Positions 29 through 36,375 of a DNA stretch of 41,639 bases are shown one piece after another. The notes under the pieces are model-generated. The model ran no database searches and was not told where the DNA came from. It saw only the letters and a list, made by a program, of their open reading frames with translations. The stretch covers positions 7,161-48,799 of the forward strand of contig PLUC01000219.1 in NCBI GenBank assembly GCA_003165415.1. Direction: 5' to 3'. The DNA comes from Holophagaceae bacterium (lineage in GTDB: Bacteria > Acidobacteriota > Holophagae > Holophagales > Holophagaceae). Each line of letters opens with the position of its first letter. Position 1 is the first letter of the stretch. The position numbers and the translations under genes are program-made.

Positions 29-416
29 TGGTGGAGGTGGCGGGAGTTGAACCCGCGTCCAAGAAGCGTGACATGGAGGGTCGTTACAGGCTTGGTCCGA
101 ATCCCGTGACCTCTGCAGGGGGTCGGACAACCCTGATCGAGGACTTGTCCCCTGGTCTCGGCTGCCGTCAGGGGACGTCGCGGCAACCTATCCTGTGCCA
201 CTGTCCGGCAGACCGAGGTCACCCTTTCAGTGGTTTAACGAGCCCGGTACCAGGAGATCCCGGGGACTCGCCGAGTTGCTGTTTAGGCAGCTTGGAGCAT
301 GTACTCGTTAGAGTCAGTGGCTTTTTTGTTTTTATCGGCTTGATGAGGGGGCCAGCCGATAAACCCCCGCCTGCACCTCGCACACCTACAGCAACCTGTC
401 GAAACCAGTCACCCCC
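29..416 (-). ncRNA. ssrA: Transfer-messenger RNA (tmRNA)
   Basis: tmRNA rescues stalled ribosomes by acting first as alanyl-tRNA and then as a short mRNA for a degradation tag. The 5' end (GGGGGTGACTGG, then the conserved TTTCGACAGG) pairs over seven bases with CACCTCC before an encoded ACCA. The T-arm (GCGGG, TTCAACT, CCCGC) is intact. Upstream of the tag a clear pseudoknot is visible: the complement of 364-368 pairs with 347-351, and the complement of 354-360 pairs with 334-340, in crossing order. An A-rich single strand follows, then a GCC resume codon (321-319). The predicted tag is ATDSNEYMLQAA, ending at a TAA at 285-283. An alternative GCC at 339-337 would give 18 residues, but it lies inside the pseudoknot stem. 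Length is 388 nt. Confidence 0.96.
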
Positions 417-3074: not shown

Positions 3075-4310
3075 ATGCGAAGCTTCGAGGCCTTCGTCGC
3101 CCAGCGCTACCTGAGGACCCGCAAGAAGGGGGCCTTCGTGCGGGTGATGGTGGGCTTCGCCCGCTGGGGCATCGCCCTGGGCGTGTTCGCCATGGTCATC
3201 GCCCTGGCGCTCATGAACGGGTTCCGGGAGGACATCCAGGCCAACCTGTTCTCGGCCACGGCCCACTTCACCGTGGCCAATTTGAGCGGGGAGATCCCCG
3301 ACACCGAGGAGTCCCTGCGCATCATCCGCGCCACCCCGGGCGTGGTGGCGGCCAGCCCCATGCGCATGGACCATGGCCTGCTGAAACCGGCCTCCAGCGA
3401 AGCGCCCCCGGCCCCGCTGATGCTCAAGGCGGTGGACCCGGCCTCGGCCCACGGCACCTCCAGCATCTTCGACAGCCTCAAGCCCAATCCGGTGGAACGC
3501 CTGCAGGAGGGCGAGATCCTCATCGGCCAGGAGCTGGCCCGGAACCTGGGCCTGCGCATCGGCGACCAGGTGGCGGTGGTGTTCCTGCGCATGGACCTGG
3601 GCCTGGCGGGGCTCCAGCCCAAGATGGCCGGGTTCAAGGTGGCCGGGACCTTCCAGAGCCACATCAGCGAGTACGACAAGGGCTGGGCCTTCATCCACAT
3701 CAAGGACGCCGAACGGCTGGCGGACACCGACCAGGCCGAGATGATCGAGGTGCGGGCCCGGAGCATCGACGCCATCGACCAGGTCAAGCCGGCGGTGCTC
3801 ACCGCCCTGAACGGCAGCGGCCCGGGCCCCTTCTTCGCCCAGGACCTGCGCGACACCAACCGGGCCCTGTTCGCGGCGCTGCGGGTGGAGAAGTGGATCT
3901 TCGGGGCGGTGCTGGCGCTGATCGTGCTCATCGCCGCGTTCAACATCGTCGGCAGCCTGGTGCTGCTGGTGACCGAGAAGCGGCGCGACCTGGGCGTGTT
4001 CCTGGCCCTGGGCGCCACGCCCAGGCAGATCCAGCGCCTGTTCGAGCTGCAGGGCCTGCGCATCGGTGCGGTGGGCACCGCCTGGGGCCTGGGCCTCTCG
4101 GTGCCGTTCTGCCTGGTGGCGGACCACTACCGCCTGATCAAGCTGCCGGCCGCGGTCTACGACTTCATCACCTTCGTCCCGTTCCGCCTCAACCCCTTCG
4201 ACCTGGCGCTGGTGGCGGTGTTTCCCCTCCTGGTCGCGTGGGGGGCCTCCCGCTATCCGGCCCGCCGCGCCGCCAGCGTCGATCCCGTCGACGCCCTCCG
4301 TGCGGATTGA
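3075..4310 (+). CDS. lolC: LolC/LolE-type lipoprotein-releasing ABC transporter permease
   Basis: Inner-membrane permease of the MacB/FtsX-like class, in Lol systems the part that extracts lipoproteins from the inner membrane for transfer to the outer membrane. The N-terminus (SFEAFVAQRYLRTRKK) matches the LolC/E start. A first membrane helix lies near residues 29-48, then a large periplasmic domain to about 275, then three C-terminal helices of the FtsX fold containing the EKRRDLGVFLALGAT coupling segment. Length (411) is normal. A LolD-type ATPase is encoded two genes downstream with an exonuclease gene between them. Only one permease is present here, suggesting a homodimer (LolF-like) rather than a C/E pair. 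Confidence 0.88.
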   Translation: MRSFEAFVAQRYLRTRKKGAFVRVMVGFARWGIALGVFAMVIALALMNGFREDIQANLFSATAHFTVANLSGEIPDTEESLRIIRATPGVVAASPMRMDHGLLKPASSEAPPAPLMLKAVDPASAHGTSSIFDSLKPNPVERLQEGEILIGQELARNLGLRIGDQVAVVFLRMDLGLAGLQPKMAGFKVAGTFQSHISEYDKGWAFIHIKDAERLADTDQAEMIEVRARSIDAIDQVKPAVLTALNGSGPGPFFAQDLRDTNRALFAALRVEKWIFGAVLALIVLIAAFNIVGSLVLLVTEKRRDLGVFLALGATPRQIQRLFELQGLRIGAVGTAWGLGLSVPFCLVADHYRLIKLPAAVYDFITFVPFRLNPFDLALVAVFPLLVAWGASRYPARRAASVDPVDALRAD

Positions 4311-27406: not shown

Positions 27407-29704
27407 CTATTCCGACGGCCTGAACCCGGTGGTGCGCATGACGCCGCGCCGGTAGGCCACAGCGCCCCAGGCCAGGAAGATCACCTCGGCCGCCGCCACC
27501 AGCAGCATCCACATCAGCACTGGGGTGTCGCCCATGGCGTAGGAGTGCTTGCCCGTGGTCAGCACGAAGTTCACCCCCAGGTAGGTCATGAGGATGGTCT
27601 GGAAGGCGGCGATGCTGATGGCCGCCACCCCGAACTTGCCGATGATCCGGTCCAGCCGGGCGTGCAGGATCGCCATGTAGGCCAGGAACGCCACCAGCGA
27701 CCACACTTCCTTGGGATCCCAGCCCCAGTAGCGGCCCCAGCTTGAAGCCGCCCACATGGAGCCGGTGATGATCCCGGCAATGAGGAAGAGGGAGCCCACG
27801 AAGATGTACCAGTAGAGCAGGTCGTACATCCGGTCGATGAGTTCGACGCGCTCGGGCTTGAAGATGGTGAAGCCGATCTGCATGTGGGCCACCACCAGAC
27901 CCAGCGCCAGGATGGAGTAGCTCACCATGATGATCGGCACGTGGATGGCCAGCCAGGGCGTGCCGGCCAGCACCGGCGCCACCGGGTGGATGAAGGAATC
28001 GATGGGCAGAAGATCCACCAGGACCATGGCCAGGGCGGCCATGCCCGCGGCGTTGAACACCACCACCCGGTTGCGCAGCACCGCGAAGGCGACGATGCCG
28101 AACAGGCCCACGCCCCAGGCCAGGAACAGCATGGACTCGTACATGTTGGCCGCCGGGATGCGCCCGCCGGAGACCCAGCGCAGCTGGATGCCCCAACTCA
28201 TCATGGCGAAGCCGGCGACCAGGGTCCCGAAGGCGATCACGTCCAGGAGCCTGCTCTGCTTCCTCCAGGCGACGATGCACACCGCCAGGGAGGCCAGCAG
28301 GATGATCCAGGCCAGGCGGACCGGGTGCAGCCAGTTGTAGAGGACTTCCGTATCCATCCGGCCGGAATCTGGCCAGTCGGGCGACCGGGGGCCGGTGGCC
28401 AGGGTGGTGAAGACCTCCGCGCTCACCCCGGTGGGGATGTTCCAGGCAGCCTTGGGATTGCCCGGGACCGGGATGGGCCGCGCCATCTGCTGCTGGAGGG
28501 TGGTCTGCATGAGGCCCAGACGCTTGTCGATGTTCTCGCCGTCCACCAGGATTCCGGTGCGGGGGCGGTTCTCCGATTCCGCCTGGCGGGCGTCCTGTAC
28601 GATCTCCAACAGCTTCGGAATCTTCACCAGGGCGTTGAAGGAGGCGTGAGTGGTGCCGGCGGGGAGGCCGAGTGCACGCGCGAAGGCGCCGGATCCCACC
28701 TTGATGACGGGCGCGTCGGCGCCGGCGTTGGGATTGAACAGCCAGCCGGTGAAGGTGGCCGTGGGATCCTCGCCCTTCCAGGAGGAGGCTCCGGTGATCT
28801 CCCACACGGTCTCCCGGGCCAGGGTGTCCAGGGGCATGACCCGGCCATCGTGCTGCACCGGGAGCGTGCGCACGGTATCGGCGACCGTGGCGGATGAAGC
28901 CGCCGCCGCCCCGCCGAGCAGGACCAGCACCAACAGAGCCTTGCGGCCCGCCCCGCGGACGGGACGGTCCGGCGCCCCGCCCTCCCGGGCCGCGGTGTCC
29001 CTGGCCTGGGCGATGCGGGTGGCGAGCACGATGATCATGCCCAGGAGGAGGGTGATGTAGCCGGCGAACACCAGGTTCTGGCCGGGATCCTTGGACACCG
29101 AGAGCACCGTGCCCTGGCGTCCCGCATCCTGGGTGTAGCTGGACTGGAACAGGGCGAACCCGCGGTAGTGCAGCTCGTGGTTCATCCAGATGGCCGCCGG
29201 GAAGGTCCGGCCGGTCTCATGGTCGGTGATCTCCACCTCGCTCCGGAAGCCGGCGGGGCGCCTGGTCCCCGGGTAGGTCTCCAGCTCGAACTTGTCCAGC
29301 TTCACGTCGAAGGGGAGCTGGTGCTGGGACAGGAGATTCTGCTCCTTGTCGCGGTTCTCGATGACCGAGGCGCGATCGCCCTCCCGGATGCTCATCATGC
29401 CTTCGATCTTGAGGAAATAGCTGGTGCACGCCCCGGCCAGGATCAGCAGCAGGGAGGCATGGGTCACCACGAAGCCGATGCGCTTCCTGGTCCAGGGGAA
29501 CAGGTTCGCCAGGGACAACGCCAGGTTGATGGCCAGCAGGCCCTGCAGGCCCAGGAACCACCAGGAGTAGTAGACCTGCTGGCCGGCGATTTCGGCCCCC
29601 ACCCGGGTCTCGACGATGGTCCCCGCCGACAGTCCCGCCAGGAGCAGGAGCAGCAGGATCACGGCGAGCTTCAGCGAAGCGAGGAATTCAAACAGCTTTT
29701 TCAT
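27407..29704 (-). CDS. ccsBA: Cytochrome c synthetase CcsBA (fused ResB-CcsA, system II)
   Basis: A 765-residue fusion that carries haem out of the cytoplasm and joins it to CxxCH motifs. The N-terminal ResB/CcsB half has helices near 10-28, 50-68 and 78-95, then a periplasmic domain and a helix near 212-230. After a linker helix (about 255-272) comes a second periplasmic region. The C-terminal CcsA half has about eight helices, with the WWD haem-handling motif WGRYWGWDPKEVW near 640. Histidines flanking that motif are present in HVPIIM and SFIHPV. It would serve the multiheme lipoproteins encoded upstream on the same strand. Confidence 0.94.
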   Translation of the reverse strand: MKKLFEFLASLKLAVILLLLLLAGLSAGTIVETRVGAEIAGQQVYYSWWFLGLQGLLAINLALSLANLFPWTRKRIGFVVTHASLLLILAGACTSYFLKIEGMMSIREGDRASVIENRDKEQNLLSQHQLPFDVKLDKFELETYPGTRRPAGFRSEVEITDHETGRTFPAAIWMNHELHYRGFALFQSSYTQDAGRQGTVLSVSKDPGQNLVFAGYITLLLGMIIVLATRIAQARDTAAREGGAPDRPVRGAGRKALLVLVLLGGAAAASSATVADTVRTLPVQHDGRVMPLDTLARETVWEITGASSWKGEDPTATFTGWLFNPNAGADAPVIKVGSGAFARALGLPAGTTHASFNALVKIPKLLEIVQDARQAESENRPRTGILVDGENIDKRLGLMQTTLQQQMARPIPVPGNPKAAWNIPTGVSAEVFTTLATGPRSPDWPDSGRMDTEVLYNWLHPVRLAWIILLASLAVCIVAWRKQSRLLDVIAFGTLVAGFAMMSWGIQLRWVSGGRIPAANMYESMLFLAWGVGLFGIVAFAVLRNRVVVFNAAGMAALAMVLVDLLPIDSFIHPVAPVLAGTPWLAIHVPIIMVSYSILALGLVVAHMQIGFTIFKPERVELIDRMYDLLYWYIFVGSLFLIAGIITGSMWAASSWGRYWGWDPKEVWSLVAFLAYMAILHARLDRIIGKFGVAAISIAAFQTILMTYLGVNFVLTTGKHSYAMGDTPVLMWMLLVAAAEVIFLAWGAVAYRRGVMRTTGFRPSE

Positions 29705-29898: not shown

Positions 29899-30234
29899 CT
29901 ACTTCTTGGCCGGCAGGGTGGCGATGACGAAGATCCGGGTCCGGATCGCCTGGTAGGTCACCATGGGGATCACATTGTGGGTCACCAGGTTGGTTTTGCT
30001 GAGGTAGGGACGGCCGGCGATGATCTTGTCGGCCAGGTCCGCGCTGATCTGCGGCAGCTTCATCAGCTCCGCCTTGGAGGCCTTGTTGATGTCGATTTGT
30101 TTCACCTGCTTGGCCGGCTTCTTGGCCTTGGGCGCCGCAGCCTGGGCCGGCTGGGTCTGGGCGGCCAGGGAGAGGCTGGCCGCGCACAGGAGCGCGCCGA
30201 CCAGGAGCCCGAAATTCTTGGAGCTTGACTTCAT
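29899..30234 (-). CDS. Secreted helix-hairpin-helix protein (ComEA-like)
   Basis: A 111-residue protein with a signal peptide (hydrophobic about 8-24, ending near AAQ), a Lys/Ala/Pro linker and one helix-hairpin-helix unit: IDINKASKAELMKLPQIS then ADKIIAGRPY. The final 30 residues are beta-like. Such small secreted HhH proteins bind DNA non-specifically, as in competence protein ComEA, though many sit outside competence operons. It lies between the multiheme operon terminator and ccsBA, with only about 35 bases for its own promoter. Confidence 0.82.
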   Translation of the reverse strand: MKSSSKNFGLLVGALLCAASLSLAAQTQPAQAAAPKAKKPAKQVKQIDINKASKAELMKLPQISADLADKIIAGRPYLSKTNLVTHNVIPMVTYQAIRTRIFVIATLPAKK

Positions 30235-30267: not shown

Positions 30268-30310
30268 AGAAAAAAGATGACCCAGATGTTATAGCACATC
30301 CGGGTCATCT
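30268..30310 (-). terminator. Factor-independent terminator of the multiheme operon
   Basis: On the minus strand a 15-base stem (AGATGACCCGGATGT pairing with ACATCTGGGTCATCT, one G-U pair) with loop GCTATA is followed immediately by six T residues. This is a textbook terminator 56 bases after the decaheme gene stop. Confidence 0.9.
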
Positions 30311-30365: not shown

Positions 30366-33300
30366 TTAGTTGGCCGGATTGGCGCCAAAGAAGTTCAGGT
30401 GGACCGCCTGGATGTCCGCGGTGCCGTAGGCGCCGTGGCAATCAAGGCACAGTTCCTGGTTCTGCAGGACAGGATAGGGCGAGGCAACCTGCGACGCGCC
30501 CTTGTTGCCACCCACAGGAGCCAGGGGCACCATGTTGGCGGGCTGGTAGAACACGCCGCCGGCAACGGCACTGGTCATGTGGCTGATGGCGTCCTGGGTA
30601 TCATGGCAGCCCGCGCAGGCGGCCGTGATGGGGGACGTGACCAGACGGCCGGGGTCAGGCTGCTGCAGGACGAACGCCGAGGGGGCGCTCGCGACCCACT
30701 GGCCGGCATAGAAGGTCGGAGCCGGGGTGGTGGTCACGCCATTCTTCGTGGTGTTGGCGCCCTGGATGGGGTTGAGCCCATAGAGGCCCGAACCCTGGGA
30801 CATGCCCGCGTAGGCGGTGCTGACCGTGGTGGGCGTGGTGGTGGTGGTGACGGTGCCCGCAGGGGTGACCCAGGGGGCAACATAGCTGCCGTTGGTCGTG
30901 GGAAGGACGGTAGCCCCTGCCAGGATGGACGCGGCGCTCGCGGTGGGCGCGGGCTGGTAGTCAGGGAAGCTGCCGTTGCCGGAAGCGGCGCCGACGATGG
31001 TCTTGGTGACCGGGTAGTAGCCGACGGCGTTGGTGTCCCAGAGCATGTTGGAGATCTGCCCGTTGTTGGTGGCGGCACTGAAGTCGTAGGAGCCGGGAAC
31101 GTGGCAGGCTTCGCAGTCGTTGAGCACGCCGGGGTAGTTGATCAGCGGGAAGTTCGGCTGAGCAGTGTAGGCGTTGGCTCGGAAAGCGGCGGAGTGCAGG
31201 CCGTGGATCCAGGTCTTGGCGTTGTAGCTCCAGCCGCCGGTGGTTCCAGCCACGGTGTGGCAGAAATCGCAGTGCTGGGGGTCGTTCATGAAGCCGTTGT
31301 GGAAGTTCGACGCGTAATTGTTGATAGCCGTGGTGTTGGGCGTGAAGATGCCCAGGTCGCCATGGCAGCTGCTGCAGGCGTTCTCTGCGATGATGGTGCG
31401 GCGCGGAGAGTAGCCGCCCTTGCTGGCGTCGAGCCAGACGTTCTGCGCGGGCAGCTGGAGGCCGCCGGTGCCGTTGGTCGCGTTGTAGGCGAAGTTGACC
31501 GCGCCTTCATTGTCCAGGTTGGCCAGGTCGGAGACCACGACGCCGAGGTTGGTCTGGATGAAGGGCGACCAGCCGAGCCCGATGCCCACCAGCGAGCAGG
31601 TGGCGGTGGAAGGCAGGGTGATGCCGTCCAGGGTGATCGTGTAGGTGTTGGTTCCGGCGGCGGCGGTGATGCCGTTGGTGGAGACCGGAATGGCGGAGGC
31701 GCCGGAGCCGATGGTGGCCGTCTTGGCCCAGAGGGTCTGCAGGGTCCAGTCGGTTTCCTTGGCGACGTTGTAGTCGCTGGGAGTGGCGGTGCCGTCCTGG
31801 GAGATGCCGGCCTGGATGCCGAGGGTCGGGCCGTTAACCAGCGGGAGGCTGCCCATCATCGTGGAACCGGCCGCGTAGGGAACCGTGATCGCCGCGGGGG
31901 TGCCAGGGTTGGCGGCGGTGATCGGCGATGCGCTGGTCAGGATCTGGAAGGTGACAACCGGGTGGCTGGCAACGACCGTCACGCTGGTGAGGTTGTAGGC
32001 GACATACAGGGCGCCGGCGGGCATGTTGGAGACCGAGGCGGCCTGCCAGGAGTCGGTGTTGGCCGCGGCGGCGTGGGAGTTGCTCCCGTTGCTGCCGTTC
32101 TCGGCCGGGCTCTGCAGCGGCGTGTGGTAGATAGTGATGTCGGCAGGCTTGTGGCACAGGGCGCAAAGCGTGTCGTCGGCCTGGGCGCCGCCATTGTGGG
32201 TACCAGGCGTGGCGGTGCCGTTGGCGGTGTTGCCCGTGACGAAGTTCACGGCGTCGTGGCAGGAGCCGCAGGCCTCACGGCTGGGAACGGTCTGGAAGTT
32301 GGACCACTGGGGATTCACCACCTTGCCGGCGACAGTGATCGGCTGGTGGCAGGTGTCGCAGCGGCGGATATCCTGGGGATACCAACCGGTGTTCATCAGG
32401 GTCTCGGAGTTGTTGGAATACTTGAGGTTGACATTCATGTGGAACTTGTGGATCCACATGGGCGTCGAGCCAACGGAGAAGCCGTTCATCTTCAGGGAAG
32501 ACGTGGGGCTCTTCTCACCGGCGGCGCCGGTGTCCAGGACCATGCTGGCGATGTTGGTGGCGGGGTTGGGTAGGCAGTCGGCCGAACCGTACTTGTTCTG
32601 CTCATTGTGGCAGGCATAGCAGTAGTTGACTTCGTTGCGCTGGCCGCTGTGGAACGCCAGGCCCTGCTGGCCGGTGCCGCCGGAGGCGTTGCTCAGGGTG
32701 CCGGTGCCGCCGAGGACGGTGTGGCAGTTAAGGCAGACCTGCGTGCTGACGACCTGCCGCCCGGTGGTGATGGGGGTGGCGTTGGGCGCGATCTGGGTGG
32801 GGCCGGGGACGAAGTCGTAGACGACGTTCGCGGTCTTGGCCGGAAGGGCGGAGGGACCGGCGGTGGACGAAGCGACCAGCGAGCCCGCGAGCGGGGTGCT
32901 GCCGGTGCCGGGGAAGGCGCCGCCGATCATGATGCCGACCCGGTGGGTCAGGGTGGGATCGTAGCTCACGTTGCCCAGGTCAGAGGCGAGGTTGTTGCCG
33001 GTGAAATAGCCGTTGGCCACTTGGGTGGCCAGCCAGGCGGCTTCGCCCTTGATGTTGCGCCGGAACGTGTAGGTGTAGTTGCCATAGCCGTCTTCGGTCA
33101 TGGTCCCGGTGGTGTCGGTGGTGGGATGAGCCGGGGTGGCCGGAGTGGTGATGGTGGGATTGCTGTCGATCAGGTAGCCGACCCAGGTGGTGGTGTTGCT
33201 GCCGTCAGGCGCGGTGCCGGCGGCATTGAGGGTCGGAGCCAGCTTCAGGAGGGTGAACGCGAAGAGAGGATACGACGGGTACACAGCCGTGGCGGACTGG

Positions 33301-33656
33301 GACTGGATGGTGGAGAGCCCGGCAATGGGAACGCCGGCGCTGTTGGCCACGCTGAACTTGACCACCGGGGTGGTGCCAGTCAGGTCGACCGAAGTGAGCG
33401 AACCGGTCAGGGCCGTGCCCGTCCAGTCGGACGAGGTCATGTTGGCGATGTTGAGGGGAGCCTGGGCGCCGGGGGTGCCGTTGGTACCGTTGGTCCCATT
33501 GGTCCCGTTAGTGCCGTTGGTGCCGGCGGGGCCGGTGGCGCCGGCGGGGCCGGTAGCTCCAGTCGCGCCTGAAGAGCCATTACAGCTGATCAGGGCGAGG
33601 GCCGTAGCGGCTGCCAGTACCAGGCCGCTCAACCTCATGAGAGGTTTGTGTTGCAT
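30366..33656 (-). CDS. Decaheme c-type cytochrome lipoprotein, OmcA/MtrC family
   Basis: A 1096-residue surface cytochrome expected to pass electrons to extracellular acceptors such as Fe(III) oxides. The signal peptide ends at the lipobox LISC (C25). Residues 27-63 are a collagen-like run with Gly at every third position, including five GTN triplets. A haem-free domain follows to about 300. Ten CxxCH motifs fall in two groups of five: CLNCH at 308 to CALCH at 498, and CSSCH at 761 to CLDCH at 1070. This is the two-pentaheme layout of OmcA/MtrC. The start is ATG 33656 behind GAGGAGGAAATAGC. It is the last gene of a four-gene operon and is followed by two hairpins. Confidence 0.93.
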   Translation of the reverse strand: MQHKPLMRLSGLVLAAATALALISCNGSSGATGATGPAGATGPAGTNGTNGTNGTNGTNGTPGAQAPLNIANMTSSDWTGTALTGSLTSVDLTGTTPVVKFSVANSAGVPIAGLSTIQSQSATAVYPSYPLFAFTLLKLAPTLNAAGTAPDGSNTTTWVGYLIDSNPTITTPATPAHPTTDTTGTMTEDGYGNYTYTFRRNIKGEAAWLATQVANGYFTGNNLASDLGNVSYDPTLTHRVGIMIGGAFPGTGSTPLAGSLVASSTAGPSALPAKTANVVYDFVPGPTQIAPNATPITTGRQVVSTQVCLNCHTVLGGTGTLSNASGGTGQQGLAFHSGQRNEVNYCYACHNEQNKYGSADCLPNPATNIASMVLDTGAAGEKSPTSSLKMNGFSVGSTPMWIHKFHMNVNLKYSNNSETLMNTGWYPQDIRRCDTCHQPITVAGKVVNPQWSNFQTVPSREACGSCHDAVNFVTGNTANGTATPGTHNGGAQADDTLCALCHKPADITIYHTPLQSPAENGSNGSNSHAAAANTDSWQAASVSNMPAGALYVAYNLTSVTVVASHPVVTFQILTSASPITAANPGTPAAITVPYAAGSTMMGSLPLVNGPTLGIQAGISQDGTATPSDYNVAKETDWTLQTLWAKTATIGSGASAIPVSTNGITAAAGTNTYTITLDGITLPSTATCSLVGIGLGWSPFIQTNLGVVVSDLANLDNEGAVNFAYNATNGTGGLQLPAQNVWLDASKGGYSPRRTIIAENACSSCHGDLGIFTPNTTAINNYASNFHNGFMNDPQHCDFCHTVAGTTGGWSYNAKTWIHGLHSAAFRANAYTAQPNFPLINYPGVLNDCEACHVPGSYDFSAATNNGQISNMLWDTNAVGYYPVTKTIVGAASGNGSFPDYQPAPTASAASILAGATVLPTTNGSYVAPWVTPAGTVTTTTTPTTVSTAYAGMSQGSGLYGLNPIQGANTTKNGVTTTPAPTFYAGQWVASAPSAFVLQQPDPGRLVTSPITAACAGCHDTQDAISHMTSAVAGGVFYQPANMVPLAPVGGNKGASQVASPYPVLQNQELCLDCHGAYGTADIQAVHLNFFGANPAN

Positions 33657-33821
33657 GCTATTTCCTCCTCGTGAAGAATTGATTGTTATTTTTTCGGATG
33701 TCCTGTTCTGCTTTTGAGTAACTAGGATCGAAGTTCGCAACAAGTCGGGCACCTCCCTGGAGATATGGGCGAGACCCGTGGGGGTCCTGAGCCTGGTGAG
33801 TGAGACATTGGAGACATCGCC
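33657..33821 (-). other. Spacer within the cytochrome operon
   Basis: This 165-base gap before the decaheme gene is long for an otherwise tight operon (gaps 0 and 10 bases). It has a small GACCC/GGGTC hairpin near 33775-33790 and an AT-rich stretch close to the decaheme ribosome site. It could hold an internal promoter or a processing site; no clear hexamers were found. Confidence 0.35.
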
Positions 33822-34496
33822 CTAGAAGCTGGCGTTGTGGCAGAGCGTGCCGTTGAAACAGCCGGGCGCGGTGCCGGGAGCGGCGGGGGACACGGGGGTG
33901 ATGGTGCTGTTGCCTCCGCCGGTATGGCACTTGGCGCACTCGGGAGCGTTGCTGACATCGACCAGGTCATGCCTGGGCTGGGTGGCCGGGAGACCCAGTC
34001 CGGCGCCCCAGGGTTTCGGGGGATGCGGCGCGGTGGTGTGGCAGGAGTAGCAGGAGGGCGCGTAGCCGTTGGCGGGATTGTTGTACAGGGCGCCGTGGCA
34101 GGGGGTGCAGGAGGCGAAGCCCTGGTTGGGGAACACCGGCGCGGTGGGATCGAAAGCCGGGCCGGCGGGGGCCATGGCGGCTAGGCCGTGGTCGGGGGTG
34201 GGCACCGCGAGGTTCCAGGTGTCCGGGTGGTTGGGCCCCTGGGGGTGATGGCAGCCGAAACAGGTCACGCCCGACGGGACTGCGGTGGCGGGTTGGACCG
34301 CGGCGGATCCATGGCAGGTGGTGCATGACCCGGGATTCTGGAGGTAGCCGGACCAGTGGGTGGTCAACCAGGTGGCCGGGTGCTGGCCGGTGATGGGGCT
34401 CACGGCAGGGGCCGACCCGCCGCCGGAGGTGCAGGCCATGACCATGAGGGCCGCCGCCGTGGCGAGGAAGGTTCTGACAATCAAGCTGGTTTTCAT
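33822..34496 (-). CDS. Multiheme c-type cytochrome lipoprotein (five canonical haem sites)
   Basis: A 224-residue protein with a signal peptide ending in VMAC (lipid Cys 22), then Gly/Ser. Canonical haem motifs are CTTCH, CFGCH, CTPCH, CYSCH and CAKCH. A sixth candidate near the C-terminus, CFNGTLCH, has five residues between the cysteines. Extra histidines (HPATW, THW, CHHPQGPNHP, DHGL, PHPPKPW) could be distal ligands. Together with the pentaheme protein it would form the wire between periplasm and the surface decaheme protein. The start is ATG 34496 with AGGGGA upstream, 10 bases after the pentaheme gene. Confidence 0.88.
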   Translation of the reverse strand: MKTSLIVRTFLATAAALMVMACTSGGGSAPAVSPITGQHPATWLTTHWSGYLQNPGSCTTCHGSAAVQPATAVPSGVTCFGCHHPQGPNHPDTWNLAVPTPDHGLAAMAPAGPAFDPTAPVFPNQGFASCTPCHGALYNNPANGYAPSCYSCHTTAPHPPKPWGAGLGLPATQPRHDLVDVSNAPECAKCHTGGGNSTITPVSPAAPGTAPGCFNGTLCHNASF

Positions 34497-34506
34497 GATC
34501 AGTCCC

Positions 34507-34974
34507 CTACCGGTGGCAAGCGGTGCACGTTTCGTTGTTGGAGCGGCCATGGCACTTGAAGCAGCTGGTGGGGTCGATCTTCCCTTCGATGCGGTGCAAG
34601 GTCATGTAGTCGCCCCGGTGCGGCGACACGCGGTCCGGACGGTTGCCCAGCTTGGTGGAGGGCAGCAGGGCGGTCTTGCCGCCGTGGCAGTCCGCGCAGA
34701 AGGACTGGGCGTGGCAGGCGGCGCAGGTGGCGGGATCCTGGTTGGCCTGGATCTTGTGGTTGGAGATGAAGGCCTCGGTGTGGTTGAAGGAGGCGAAGGT
34801 CTTGTCGGTGCTCGCCACCCGGTCGGTGCCGTGGCAGTCGGAGCAGGTGGGCCGGCCCTGCTCCAGCGCCTGGGGATGGGTGGGCGCGAAGCTGCCCTTG
34901 GGCGAGATCCAGGAACAGGCCACCATCAGCCCGAGGCCGAGGGCGACAGAAAGGAGCGCGAATTTCTTCAACAT
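34507..34974 (-). CDS. Pentaheme c-type cytochrome lipoprotein
   Basis: A 155-residue protein with lipobox MVAC (Cys 20) and five haem motifs: CSDCH, CAACH, CADCH, CFKCH and CTACH, the last almost at the C-terminus. Free histidines at HPQ, FNHTEAF, SNHK, PHRGDY and LHRIEG match the number needed for bis-His ligation of five haems. Its ATG directly follows the barrel gene's stop codon, with AAGGAG inside the barrel's last codons, so the two are translationally coupled. The family is common in operons for outer-membrane electron conduits. Which face of the membrane it occupies is not readable. Confidence 0.9.
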   Translation of the reverse strand: MLKKFALLSVALGLGLMVACSWISPKGSFAPTHPQALEQGRPTCSDCHGTDRVASTDKTFASFNHTEAFISNHKIQANQDPATCAACHAQSFCADCHGGKTALLPSTKLGNRPDRVSPHRGDYMTLHRIEGKIDPTSCFKCHGRSNNETCTACHR

Positions 34975-36375
34975 CTACTTGTCTCCTTTTCCGGCCAGGC
35001 CGAACCGGTATTCGAGGCGCAGGAGTGCGATGGTCTGCTTCCCGAAGATGGGGCTGTCCTCCAGGGTCAGGTCTCCGGAGACCTTGGCGCCGTTCTTGGC
35101 CTTGTAGCCCACGGAGCCGACGATGGCCGATTCGATGCTCTGGCCGTTCAGGCTCGGGTTGAGGTAGGGGTCGGCATAGTGCAGCCGGATGGCGTCCAGG
35201 CTCGCCGAGTAGGCGCCCTTTTCGGCCATGATCCAGGCCCGGGCTTCGCTGTGGCTGAGGCTGTAGGCCGGCACCAGGAGGTCCACGGCCTGCACCTGGG
35301 CGGCATTCACCTTGTGGAAGCCGACCCCGGCGAGGATGTGCGATTCGGGGAGGGTGTAGCGGAGATCTGCGCCGCCCCGGGTGGTGGTGCCGTAGCTTTC
35401 GCGGTCGGTGCGGCGCACGTCGCCCACCACCTGCAGGTTCCCCGGCGCCTGCCAGGTGAGCTTGGCGCCGGTGGCCTTGAACATGCCCTGCTCGTTCTGG
35501 TTGAACAGGGACGGCAGGGTGGAGCCCGCGAAGTAGGAGAACAGGTTGCGCTCCACGAAGGTGCCGGCGAGGGAGAACGTCTGGAGGAACTTGAGGGTGG
35601 CGGTGTAGTCGTCCTCGGCGAGCCTGGAAATGTTGATGCCGGCCGCCGGCGCGAGGAGGGGCGCAACATCCGTCACCGTGCGTCCGCTGAAATCGAAGCT
35701 GTCGCAGGGGGTGAGTTTCATGTCCACACCCAGCAGCCTGCGGGTGTAGACCATCGCGGTCGGGTTGGTCGCGGGGGCCGGAGCGGTCTGGGTGGCGGGA
35801 GAACTGCCGTCCTCCAGGTAGTCCACGCCGATCTCGCCCACCTTGGCCGCATGCCAGGCCAGGCGTCCGCCGAACATGAAGTCCCGCTGGGAGGCCGCCA
35901 CGCTCTGGTTCTGGTTGCTGTAGTTCTTGAAGATCACCGGCGTGCCGGCGAAGGCGGACACGGTGAACCCGCAACGCAGGTCGGTGCTGGCGCTGACGCC
36001 GTCCACCGGCTCGTTGCCGATGCCCTGGGTGACGCTGAACCGGCCGGCCTTGAGCTGGGCGTTGGCCTGGGCGAAGTTGTACTGCAGGTATCCGTAGGTG
36101 AAGTCGCCGGTGCTCTTGCCGCCGATGTAGGACTGGTCCGCCAGGTCCGCCATGCCCCAGCCGTAGAAGTGGAGGGAGAGAGCGTCCTTGCCGCCGAGCT
36201 TGACGGCGTCGATGCCCACGTACTCGGTGGCGGGGGTGAAGGTGCCAGTGCTGAACCCGGGCGTGTTCTGCTTCCAGGTCTGGGCGATGGTGGTGGTGGA
36301 GACGGACACATCCTGGGCCATGGCCGTGCCGGCGACCAGAGTGGCGAGGAGGGCCAATGGGGTGCGGTGCTTCAT
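34975..36375 (-). CDS. Outer-membrane beta-barrel of a porin-cytochrome conduit
   Basis: A 466-residue protein with a signal peptide cleaved after AMA (about residue 19) and repeated alternating strands to the C-terminus, for example LSLHFYGWGMADLAD, GYLQYNFAQANAQLKAGRF, FMFGGRLAWHA, LRYTLPESHILAGVGF and IALLRLEYRFGL. No CxxCH is present. It is shorter than MtrB (about 700) and nearer in size to the porins of Geobacter-type conduits. As first gene of an operon with three cytochrome lipoproteins it is the likely pore through which the haem wire runs. ATG 36375 has GGAGG at good spacing; an upstream in-frame extension to 36483 would spoil the signal peptide. Confidence 0.87.
   Translation of the reverse strand: MKHRTPLALLATLVAGTAMAQDVSVSTTTIAQTWKQNTPGFSTGTFTPATEYVGIDAVKLGGKDALSLHFYGWGMADLADQSYIGGKSTGDFTYGYLQYNFAQANAQLKAGRFSVTQGIGNEPVDGVSASTDLRCGFTVSAFAGTPVIFKNYSNQNQSVAASQRDFMFGGRLAWHAAKVGEIGVDYLEDGSSPATQTAPAPATNPTAMVYTRRLLGVDMKLTPCDSFDFSGRTVTDVAPLLAPAAGINISRLAEDDYTATLKFLQTFSLAGTFVERNLFSYFAGSTLPSLFNQNEQGMFKATGAKLTWQAPGNLQVVGDVRRTDRESYGTTTRGGADLRYTLPESHILAGVGFHKVNAAQVQAVDLLVPAYSLSHSEARAWIMAEKGAYSASLDAIRLHYADPYLNPSLNGQSIESAIVGSVGYKAKNGAKVSGDLTLEDSPIFGKQTIALLRLEYRFGLAGKGDK

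Follow-up and report, generated by a model that had tools for sequence, protein, structure and literature searches.

Several electron conduits across the outer membrane have been described. Those of Geobacter sulfurreducens include ExtABCD and ExtEFG, and Geobacter clusters of the Ext kind are required for metal or electrode reduction; a figure legend in the same paper also mentions that some extBCD clusters have no extA close by and that other clusters carry one more decahaem lipoprotein ahead of extE (PMC6148476; this and the other papers are cited throughout from excerpts). OmbB-OmaB-OmcB combines an 8-haem periplasmic cytochrome, OmaB, with a 12-haem surface cytochrome, OmcB, and Geobacter sp. 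M18 has conduits made of a 5-haem protein, a 6-haem protein and a porin (GM18_3461-3463 and 3467-3469) (PMC4245776). According to the same source, Liu 2014 found that an isolated Pcc complex moves electrons through a bilayer. A Holophaga genome was reported to hold a cluster of the ExtB/E family and another with MtrB, by the authors' account the first in the Acidobacteria (PMC7399161), and a Holophaga metagenome-assembled genome expresses homologues of extEFG and mtrF (PMC11748539). Here we describe a four-gene locus of a Holophagaceae bacterium, comprising an outer-membrane barrel gene and three multihaem cytochrome genes, cytA, cytB and cytC. It lies in a stretch of 41,639 nucleotides, which we call the window (contig PLUC01000219.1, positions 7,161 to 48,799, assembly GCA_003165415.1).

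The four genes occupy positions 36375-30366 on the minus strand, in the order barrel, cytA, cytB, cytC, in a genome of 4.84 Mb and 273 contigs that is ~94% complete. The barrel gene (36375-34975) encodes 466 residues with a signal peptide and a predicted 22-strand outer-membrane beta-barrel, putatively of the ExtB/ExtE-type family. It is followed by cytA (34974-34507; 155 residues), a pentahaem lipoprotein with five CxxCH motifs and its lipobox cysteine at C20, which we propose as the in-barrel wire. Next come cytB (34496-33822; 224 residues), a small lipoprotein (C22) with five CxxCH and a C-terminal Cx5CH, and cytC (33656-30366; 1096 residues), a decahaem surface lipoprotein (C25) of the OmcA/MtrC family with ten CxxCH. 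An earlier note on this DNA had described a barrel gene and then lipoproteins on one strand, with about 20 haems, and its coordinates and order proved correct. We counted 20 CxxCH in the quartet, far above shuffled sequences (mean 0.01-0.05 and maximum 2 in 20,000 shuffles per protein), and no other stop-to-stop frame of at least 60 residues in the window had at least two. The lipobox cysteines were kept in every aligned protein (47/47 for cytA, 18/18 for cytB, 15/15 for cytC), and none of these proteins had an aspartate right after the cysteine. In Escherichia coli, an aspartate in that place marks retention of a lipoprotein in the inner membrane; by this rule, such retention of cytA, cytB and cytC is unlikely. 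Together with the results below, these data support the earlier reading of the locus as a porin-cytochrome conduit: the quartet is very probably an electron conduit, and we think it likely to be a trans-outer-membrane conduit of the Ext type whose barrel houses the pentahaem protein.

The barrel and pentahaem pair

The barrel had a match in 25 of 60 genomes. All 25 were among the 37 genomes of the same family, the window's own included, and none among the 23 outside it. The gene-neighbourhood check proposed in the earlier note found the same order: in the 20 loci fetched first, from 20 of the 24 other barrel-bearing genomes, barrel, cytA and cytB were adjacent in every case, and cytC stood beside them in 18 (following in 17, two of them cut by a contig end, and upstream in one), while the contig ended first in the other two. 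A contig search with the single barrel sequence alone gave no match. A scan of genome contigs with cytA returned 138 related stretches, of which we analysed the best 80 (L036-L115, a few of them near-duplicates). These best 80 came from Holophagaceae, including named Geothrix, and from Geobacter, Geomonas, Oryzomonas, Desulfuromonadaceae and others; the closest named relatives of the window's cytA were Holophagaceae (Acidobacteriota). Identity to the Geobacter/Desulfuromonadia loci was 29-37% for the barrel and 44-58% for cytA, and a joined barrel and cytA tree placed the window beside two other Holophagaceae loci, L036 and L037.

Both genes could be placed in 78 of the 80 loci, the exceptions being L110, without a barrel, and L071, where the pair is split by an N. 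The barrel stop and the cytA start overlapped in 72 of the 78 (4 nt in 40 loci, 1 nt in the other 32). Two further pairs abut, as in the window, where the cytA start codon adjoins the barrel stop; the remaining four were odd through the script's choice of start or a broken frame. A natural barrel-cytA fusion in L071 was considered and rejected, the unknown residue at the junction being the N in the assembly.

The pair also occurs in two further Geobacter-side clades. In the second, the barrel scored 256-273 bits and the pentahaem protein 146-165 bits; in the third, the scores were 167-195 and 142-153 bits, and an 11-haem gene adjoins. Three loci of these clades, L130, L133 and L138, have an OmcA/MtrC-type decahaem protein near the pair (329, 447 and 604 bits, respectively) and a small lipoprotein that weakly matches cytB (65, 74 and 45 bits; 3, 5 and 3 CxxCH). 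A non-haem gene separates the small lipoprotein from the decahaem gene in L130 and L133, and the decahaem gene is upstream in L138. No cytC match was listed in the other eight loci of the two clades (L123, L125, L126, L131, L132, L134, L137 and L139), four of which, L125, L126, L131 and L132, have other 8-10-haem proteins nearby. By sequence homology and shared order, the barrel-pentahaem pair thus belongs with the pairs of Geobacter-side conduits, that is, with the ExtBC/ExtEF type.

In cytA, the five CxxCH and five other histidines were invariant among 47 proteins from two phyla, which fits five bis-His haems. A cytA profile was run on 288 multihaem open reading frames from loci L036-L115 and L122-L139. 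It scored above 200 bits in 86, 120-200 bits in 11, 50-120 bits in five, 20-50 bits in none and below 20 bits in 30, with no match (E<=10) in 156; after removal of duplicates, the corresponding counts among 274 frames were 80, 11, 4, 0, 29 and 150. Four distinct 8-haem cytochromes matched at 68-80 bits (L085, L092, which equals L136, L124 and L138), and every multihaem frame outside these and the pentahaem family scored below 20 bits or had no match. Directly before three of the four lies a barrel gene that the barrel profile matches at 40-62 bits; the fourth, in L085, is near a contig start. By haem number and gene order only, the 8-haem loci look like OmbB-OmaB-OmcB clusters. These remote matches suggest that cytA occupies the OmaB position as a wire in the barrel, and on this sequence evidence we favour an in-barrel place for it, with some reserve.

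Compared with described conduits, the window shares with ExtABCD and ExtEFG a barrel beside a pentahaem lipoprotein plus a further cytochrome, but the third cytochrome of those systems has 12 haems (PMC6148476), whereas the window has a single small module and then an OmcA/MtrC protein. No multihaem frame that could encode an ExtA-like periplasmic dodecahaem lies upstream of the barrel in the window; one may lie in the rest of the genome, which was not searched for it. In OmbB-OmaB-OmcB, too, the barrel is followed by a haem wire and a surface lipoprotein, and our profiles match such clusters remotely, but its periplasmic and surface proteins have 8 and 12 haems. The Geobacter sp. M18 clusters resemble the window in having two small cytochromes as the wire; their 6-haem protein, however, combines a single typical motif with five of the CX3-4CH form, and the excerpts on them mention no OmcA/MtrC protein (PMC4245776). 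MtrCAB of Shewanella shares the surface decahaem of the OmcA/MtrC family, but the operon has neither MtrA nor MtrB. Its barrel had no MtrB/PioB match and is predicted to have 22 strands, where the prediction for MtrB is 28 (PMC4245776), and the operon encodes no decahaem besides cytC, in agreement with the earlier statement that an MtrA-sized decahaem is missing. A search of the ~94% complete genome for the MtrB family was negative, though run without a positive control. The ExtB/E-family cluster of Holophaga S7 (PMC7399161) comes from a related bacterium and is assigned there to the ExtB/E porin family; as far as gene sets compared by description only allow, it is probably the same conduit as the window's.

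Two suggestions of the earlier note did not hold. It had proposed an undescribed conduit class, which we reject: the barrel and the cytA family are common to Geobacter-side conduits, an OmcA/MtrC protein also stands beside the pair in L130, L133 and L138, and similar sets are in print, namely the decahaem beside extE, the 5-haem plus 6-haem conduit and the Holophaga ExtB/E-type cluster. The way in which the parts are combined here is nevertheless little described; an earlier printed description of the exact quartet is possible, as subscription papers, figures and supplements were mostly outside our literature search. It had also supposed that both small lipoproteins replace MtrA. Only cytA is coupled to the barrel, in what would be the OmaB position, and cytB is more like the modules in the ExtD/ExtG position.

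cytB and its Cx5CH motif

The C-terminal end of cytB contains a Cx5CH motif (CFNGTLCH; 33837-33860, minus strand), a candidate atypical haem-c site. It was kept in all 38 small cytB proteins, defined as those that have five CxxCH and score more than 250 bits against the profile. Six other histidines (39, 47, 90, 103, 158 and 176) were invariant, when a shifted column, 83/84, is taken as a haem-motif histidine; should Cx5CH bind a haem, their number would suffice for six bis-His haems. The earlier note had left the number of cytB haems at five or six. Five CxxCH were confirmed, and six haems seems the better reading, given Cx5CH and the six histidines.

The third gene in most of the Geobacter-side loci among the 80 encodes a larger cytochrome with 8-24 CxxCH and a cytB-profile match of 47-371 bits. 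In a few loci this gene is smaller, broken or absent, and some of these third genes lack Cx5CH. Matches to the pattern C[FYLT][ND]x2-3[LM]CH occurred at least twice in 17 proteins; the spacing was 111-139 residues in 14 of these, all larger relatives, and 179-180 residues in three Holophagaceae proteins with ten CxxCH. Judged by its sequence, cytB resembles a single-module relative of the larger Geobacter-side cytochromes in the third (ExtD/ExtG) position. In the Holophagaceae loci L056, L057 and L060, cytB consists of two modules, with ten CxxCH and two Cx5CH in total, and the barrel gene is preceded by a cytC match, which in L060 is a fragment.

It is almost as probable as a sixth haem site that Cx5CH forms a disulfide or has a structural role, which would leave cytB with five haems only. 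The sixth haem is read from sequence alone, and an account of atypical CX3-15CH motifs in several surface cytochromes, including GSU_2724, reached no verdict on haem binding by Cx>4CH motifs (PMC4245776). However, none of the 38 small cytB proteins lacks the motif, which recurs at regular spacing in the 14 larger relatives and the three two-module proteins and is accompanied by as many invariant histidines as six bis-His haems require. No paper with 'CX5CH' together with 'cytochrome' was found in the literature searched.

cytC and its collagen-like stalk

With 302.4 bits against TIGR03507 (cut-off 209.3) and ten CxxCH, cytC is a member of the OmcA/MtrC family, and it was the only TIGR03507 match found in the genome. 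A collagen-like Gly-X-Y stalk of 13 triplets (33462-33578, minus strand) lies between its lipid anchor and its body, with a Pfam Collagen match just below the cut-off. All 37 distinct cytC-family proteins with at least nine CxxCH in the 80 loci had a Gly-X-Y run of 7-16 triplets; shuffling the first 200 residues of cytC never gave more than 6 (2000 shuffles). The stalk fades outside this group, to 6 triplets in the Geobacter-side L138 and to 4 in L130 and L133, within the shuffle range. The term 'collagen-like' was not used in the matches listed by a literature search on decaheme outer membrane cytochromes. In Geothrix, further OmcA/MtrC genes stand in tandem 3' of the conduit (L039-L041, L046, L048, L049 and L061).

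An intrinsic terminator follows cytC (30275-30310, minus strand), with a 15-bp stem, a T run, a folding energy of -26.4 kcal/mol and a z of -6.4. This agrees with the single terminator of the earlier note, although by plain count the region has three terminator-like sites, not above shuffles (5.0). The single promoter it had also claimed fared worse: one candidate matched 9 of 12 positions, which is at chance level (shuffles 0.6 +/- 0.8), and a second promoter could fit in the 165-nt gap between cytB and cytC.

The same gap bears on whether cytC is part of the conduit at all. The conduit could consist of the barrel, cytA and cytB only, with cytC an independent surface reductase that shares the operon. 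Apart from the gap, this is favoured by the absence of a cytC match from the available flanks of the Geobacter-side loci among the best 80 cytA stretches, by the divergence of cytC, which is the most variable of the four proteins (25-38% identity in the first-fetched loci), and by the tandem copies in Geothrix. Nevertheless, 18 of 20 Holophagaceae loci have cytC next to the pair and the other two are cut short by a contig end, and a cytC-type protein is near the pair in three Geobacter-side loci of another clade. We therefore regard an independent cytC as doubtful.

The barrel, the neighbouring genes and the proposed electron route

The barrel protein had no Pfam, NCBIfam or PDB sequence match. 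An AlphaFold2 model from a 52-row alignment predicted 22 strands without an inner plug (predicted local distance difference test (pLDDT) 83.9; predicted template modelling score 0.78), with loops that alternate between long and short (mean 12.6 and 3.8 residues). Inward-facing residues were more conserved than outward-facing ones (0.716 and 0.596, P = 2e-6). A basic, conserved KGGK-like tail (34975-34996, minus strand) extends beyond the last strand; outer-membrane barrels mostly end at that strand, so that a tail beyond it is unusual. Among the 50 Foldseek matches listed for the model were AlgE, ushers and other porins, with template modelling scores (query) of 0.25-0.57. That the barrel is instead a secretion or sugar-type pore helping cytC or other cytochromes to the surface, with the small cytochromes acting elsewhere, is improbable. 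In its favour are the best fold matches (the alginate exporter AlgE and pilus ushers), the lack of a plug in the barrel protein, and a 2025 review that brings up a cytochrome-secretion role of such complexes, calling it speculative (PMC12307469). Against it, these fold matches are weak and generic, barrel and pentahaem translation overlap in most loci of two phyla, and metal or electrode reduction by Geobacter depends on clusters of the Ext kind (PMC6148476).

Several points weigh against an Ext-type conduit with cytA in the barrel. The ExtB/ExtE-type assignment comes from family architecture and the literature, without direct comparison to the G. sulfurreducens Ext proteins, and MtrB was absent among the 50 Foldseek matches listed. 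The inward and outward sides were set by hydrophobicity on a single barrel, without a control barrel, and the outward side was the more conserved in 4 of 22 strands. An AlphaFold model of cytA was poor (pLDDT 59.8) and was not used. Given the 165-nt gap, cytC might be expressed separately. Finally, whereas gene content, family relations, haem motifs, conservation and the predicted barrel fold come directly from the analysis, we infer the positions of the proteins, the barrel-cytochrome contact, haem occupancy of Cx5CH, the direction of flow and the acceptor.

Beyond the terminator lies a conserved gene for a secreted helix-hairpin-helix (ComEA-like) protein (29899-30234, minus strand); such a gene starts less than 700 bp after cytC in 22 of the 24 loci that could be judged. 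It is followed by a fused CcsBA (System II) haem lyase gene (27407-29704, minus strand), a neighbour conserved in part only. A good CcsBA match was beside the operon in three of the 80 loci (L036, L044 and L052), with a weak one in the Geobacter-side L086, and also in the first-fetched L019, L025 and L029, of which the first two are apparently L036 and L052. It was absent from several loci with ~5 kb downstream, and many loci have too little flank to judge. The genome has two System II haem lyase sets, one beside the conduit and one on contig C187. In Wolinella, extra System II sets serve atypical haem motifs; a lyase dedicated to Cx5CH is left here as an idea. A tmRNA gene (29-416, minus strand; Rfam RF00023) is also in the window.

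The conduit that we propose would work as follows. The 22-strand barrel would form the hole through the outer membrane, and electrons from periplasmic carriers would pass to cytA, then cytB, then cytC and on to an acceptor outside. Co-translated with the barrel, cytA would sit in it or at its periplasmic mouth and carry electrons through. The next module, at the outer mouth, would be cytB, probably with six haems; for its placement outside the barrel, we see the chances as evenly balanced. On its collagen-like tether, cytC would pass electrons to Fe(III) or Mn oxides, humics, electrodes or partner cells. What we consider new is the conservation of the quartet in Holophagaceae, the possible haem site at Cx5CH, for which six histidines match, the collagen-like stalk and the conserved barrel interior; the conserved Cx5CH unit and the stalk are the parts that specialists might not expect. 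More tentatively, the two phyla may share a modular conduit: a minimal six-haem unit with an unrecognised Cx5CH haem-c site, to which an OmcA/MtrC decahaem docks via a collagen-like, possibly trimeric stalk, the large ExtD-type cytochromes being tandem copies of the unit.

Holophagaceae such as Geothrix are iron reducers in the environment. Holophaga and Geothrix have been implicated in extracellular electron transfer (PMC11748539), and the outer-membrane electron route of the family is little described in the papers that we found. Haem binding by Cx>4CH motifs, posed as a question in PMC4245776, becomes directly testable on one small protein, cytB. A pentahaem protein of 136 residues may suffice to wire a 22-strand barrel, and the operon offers the Holophagaceae a small, conserved and testable candidate for such a conduit.

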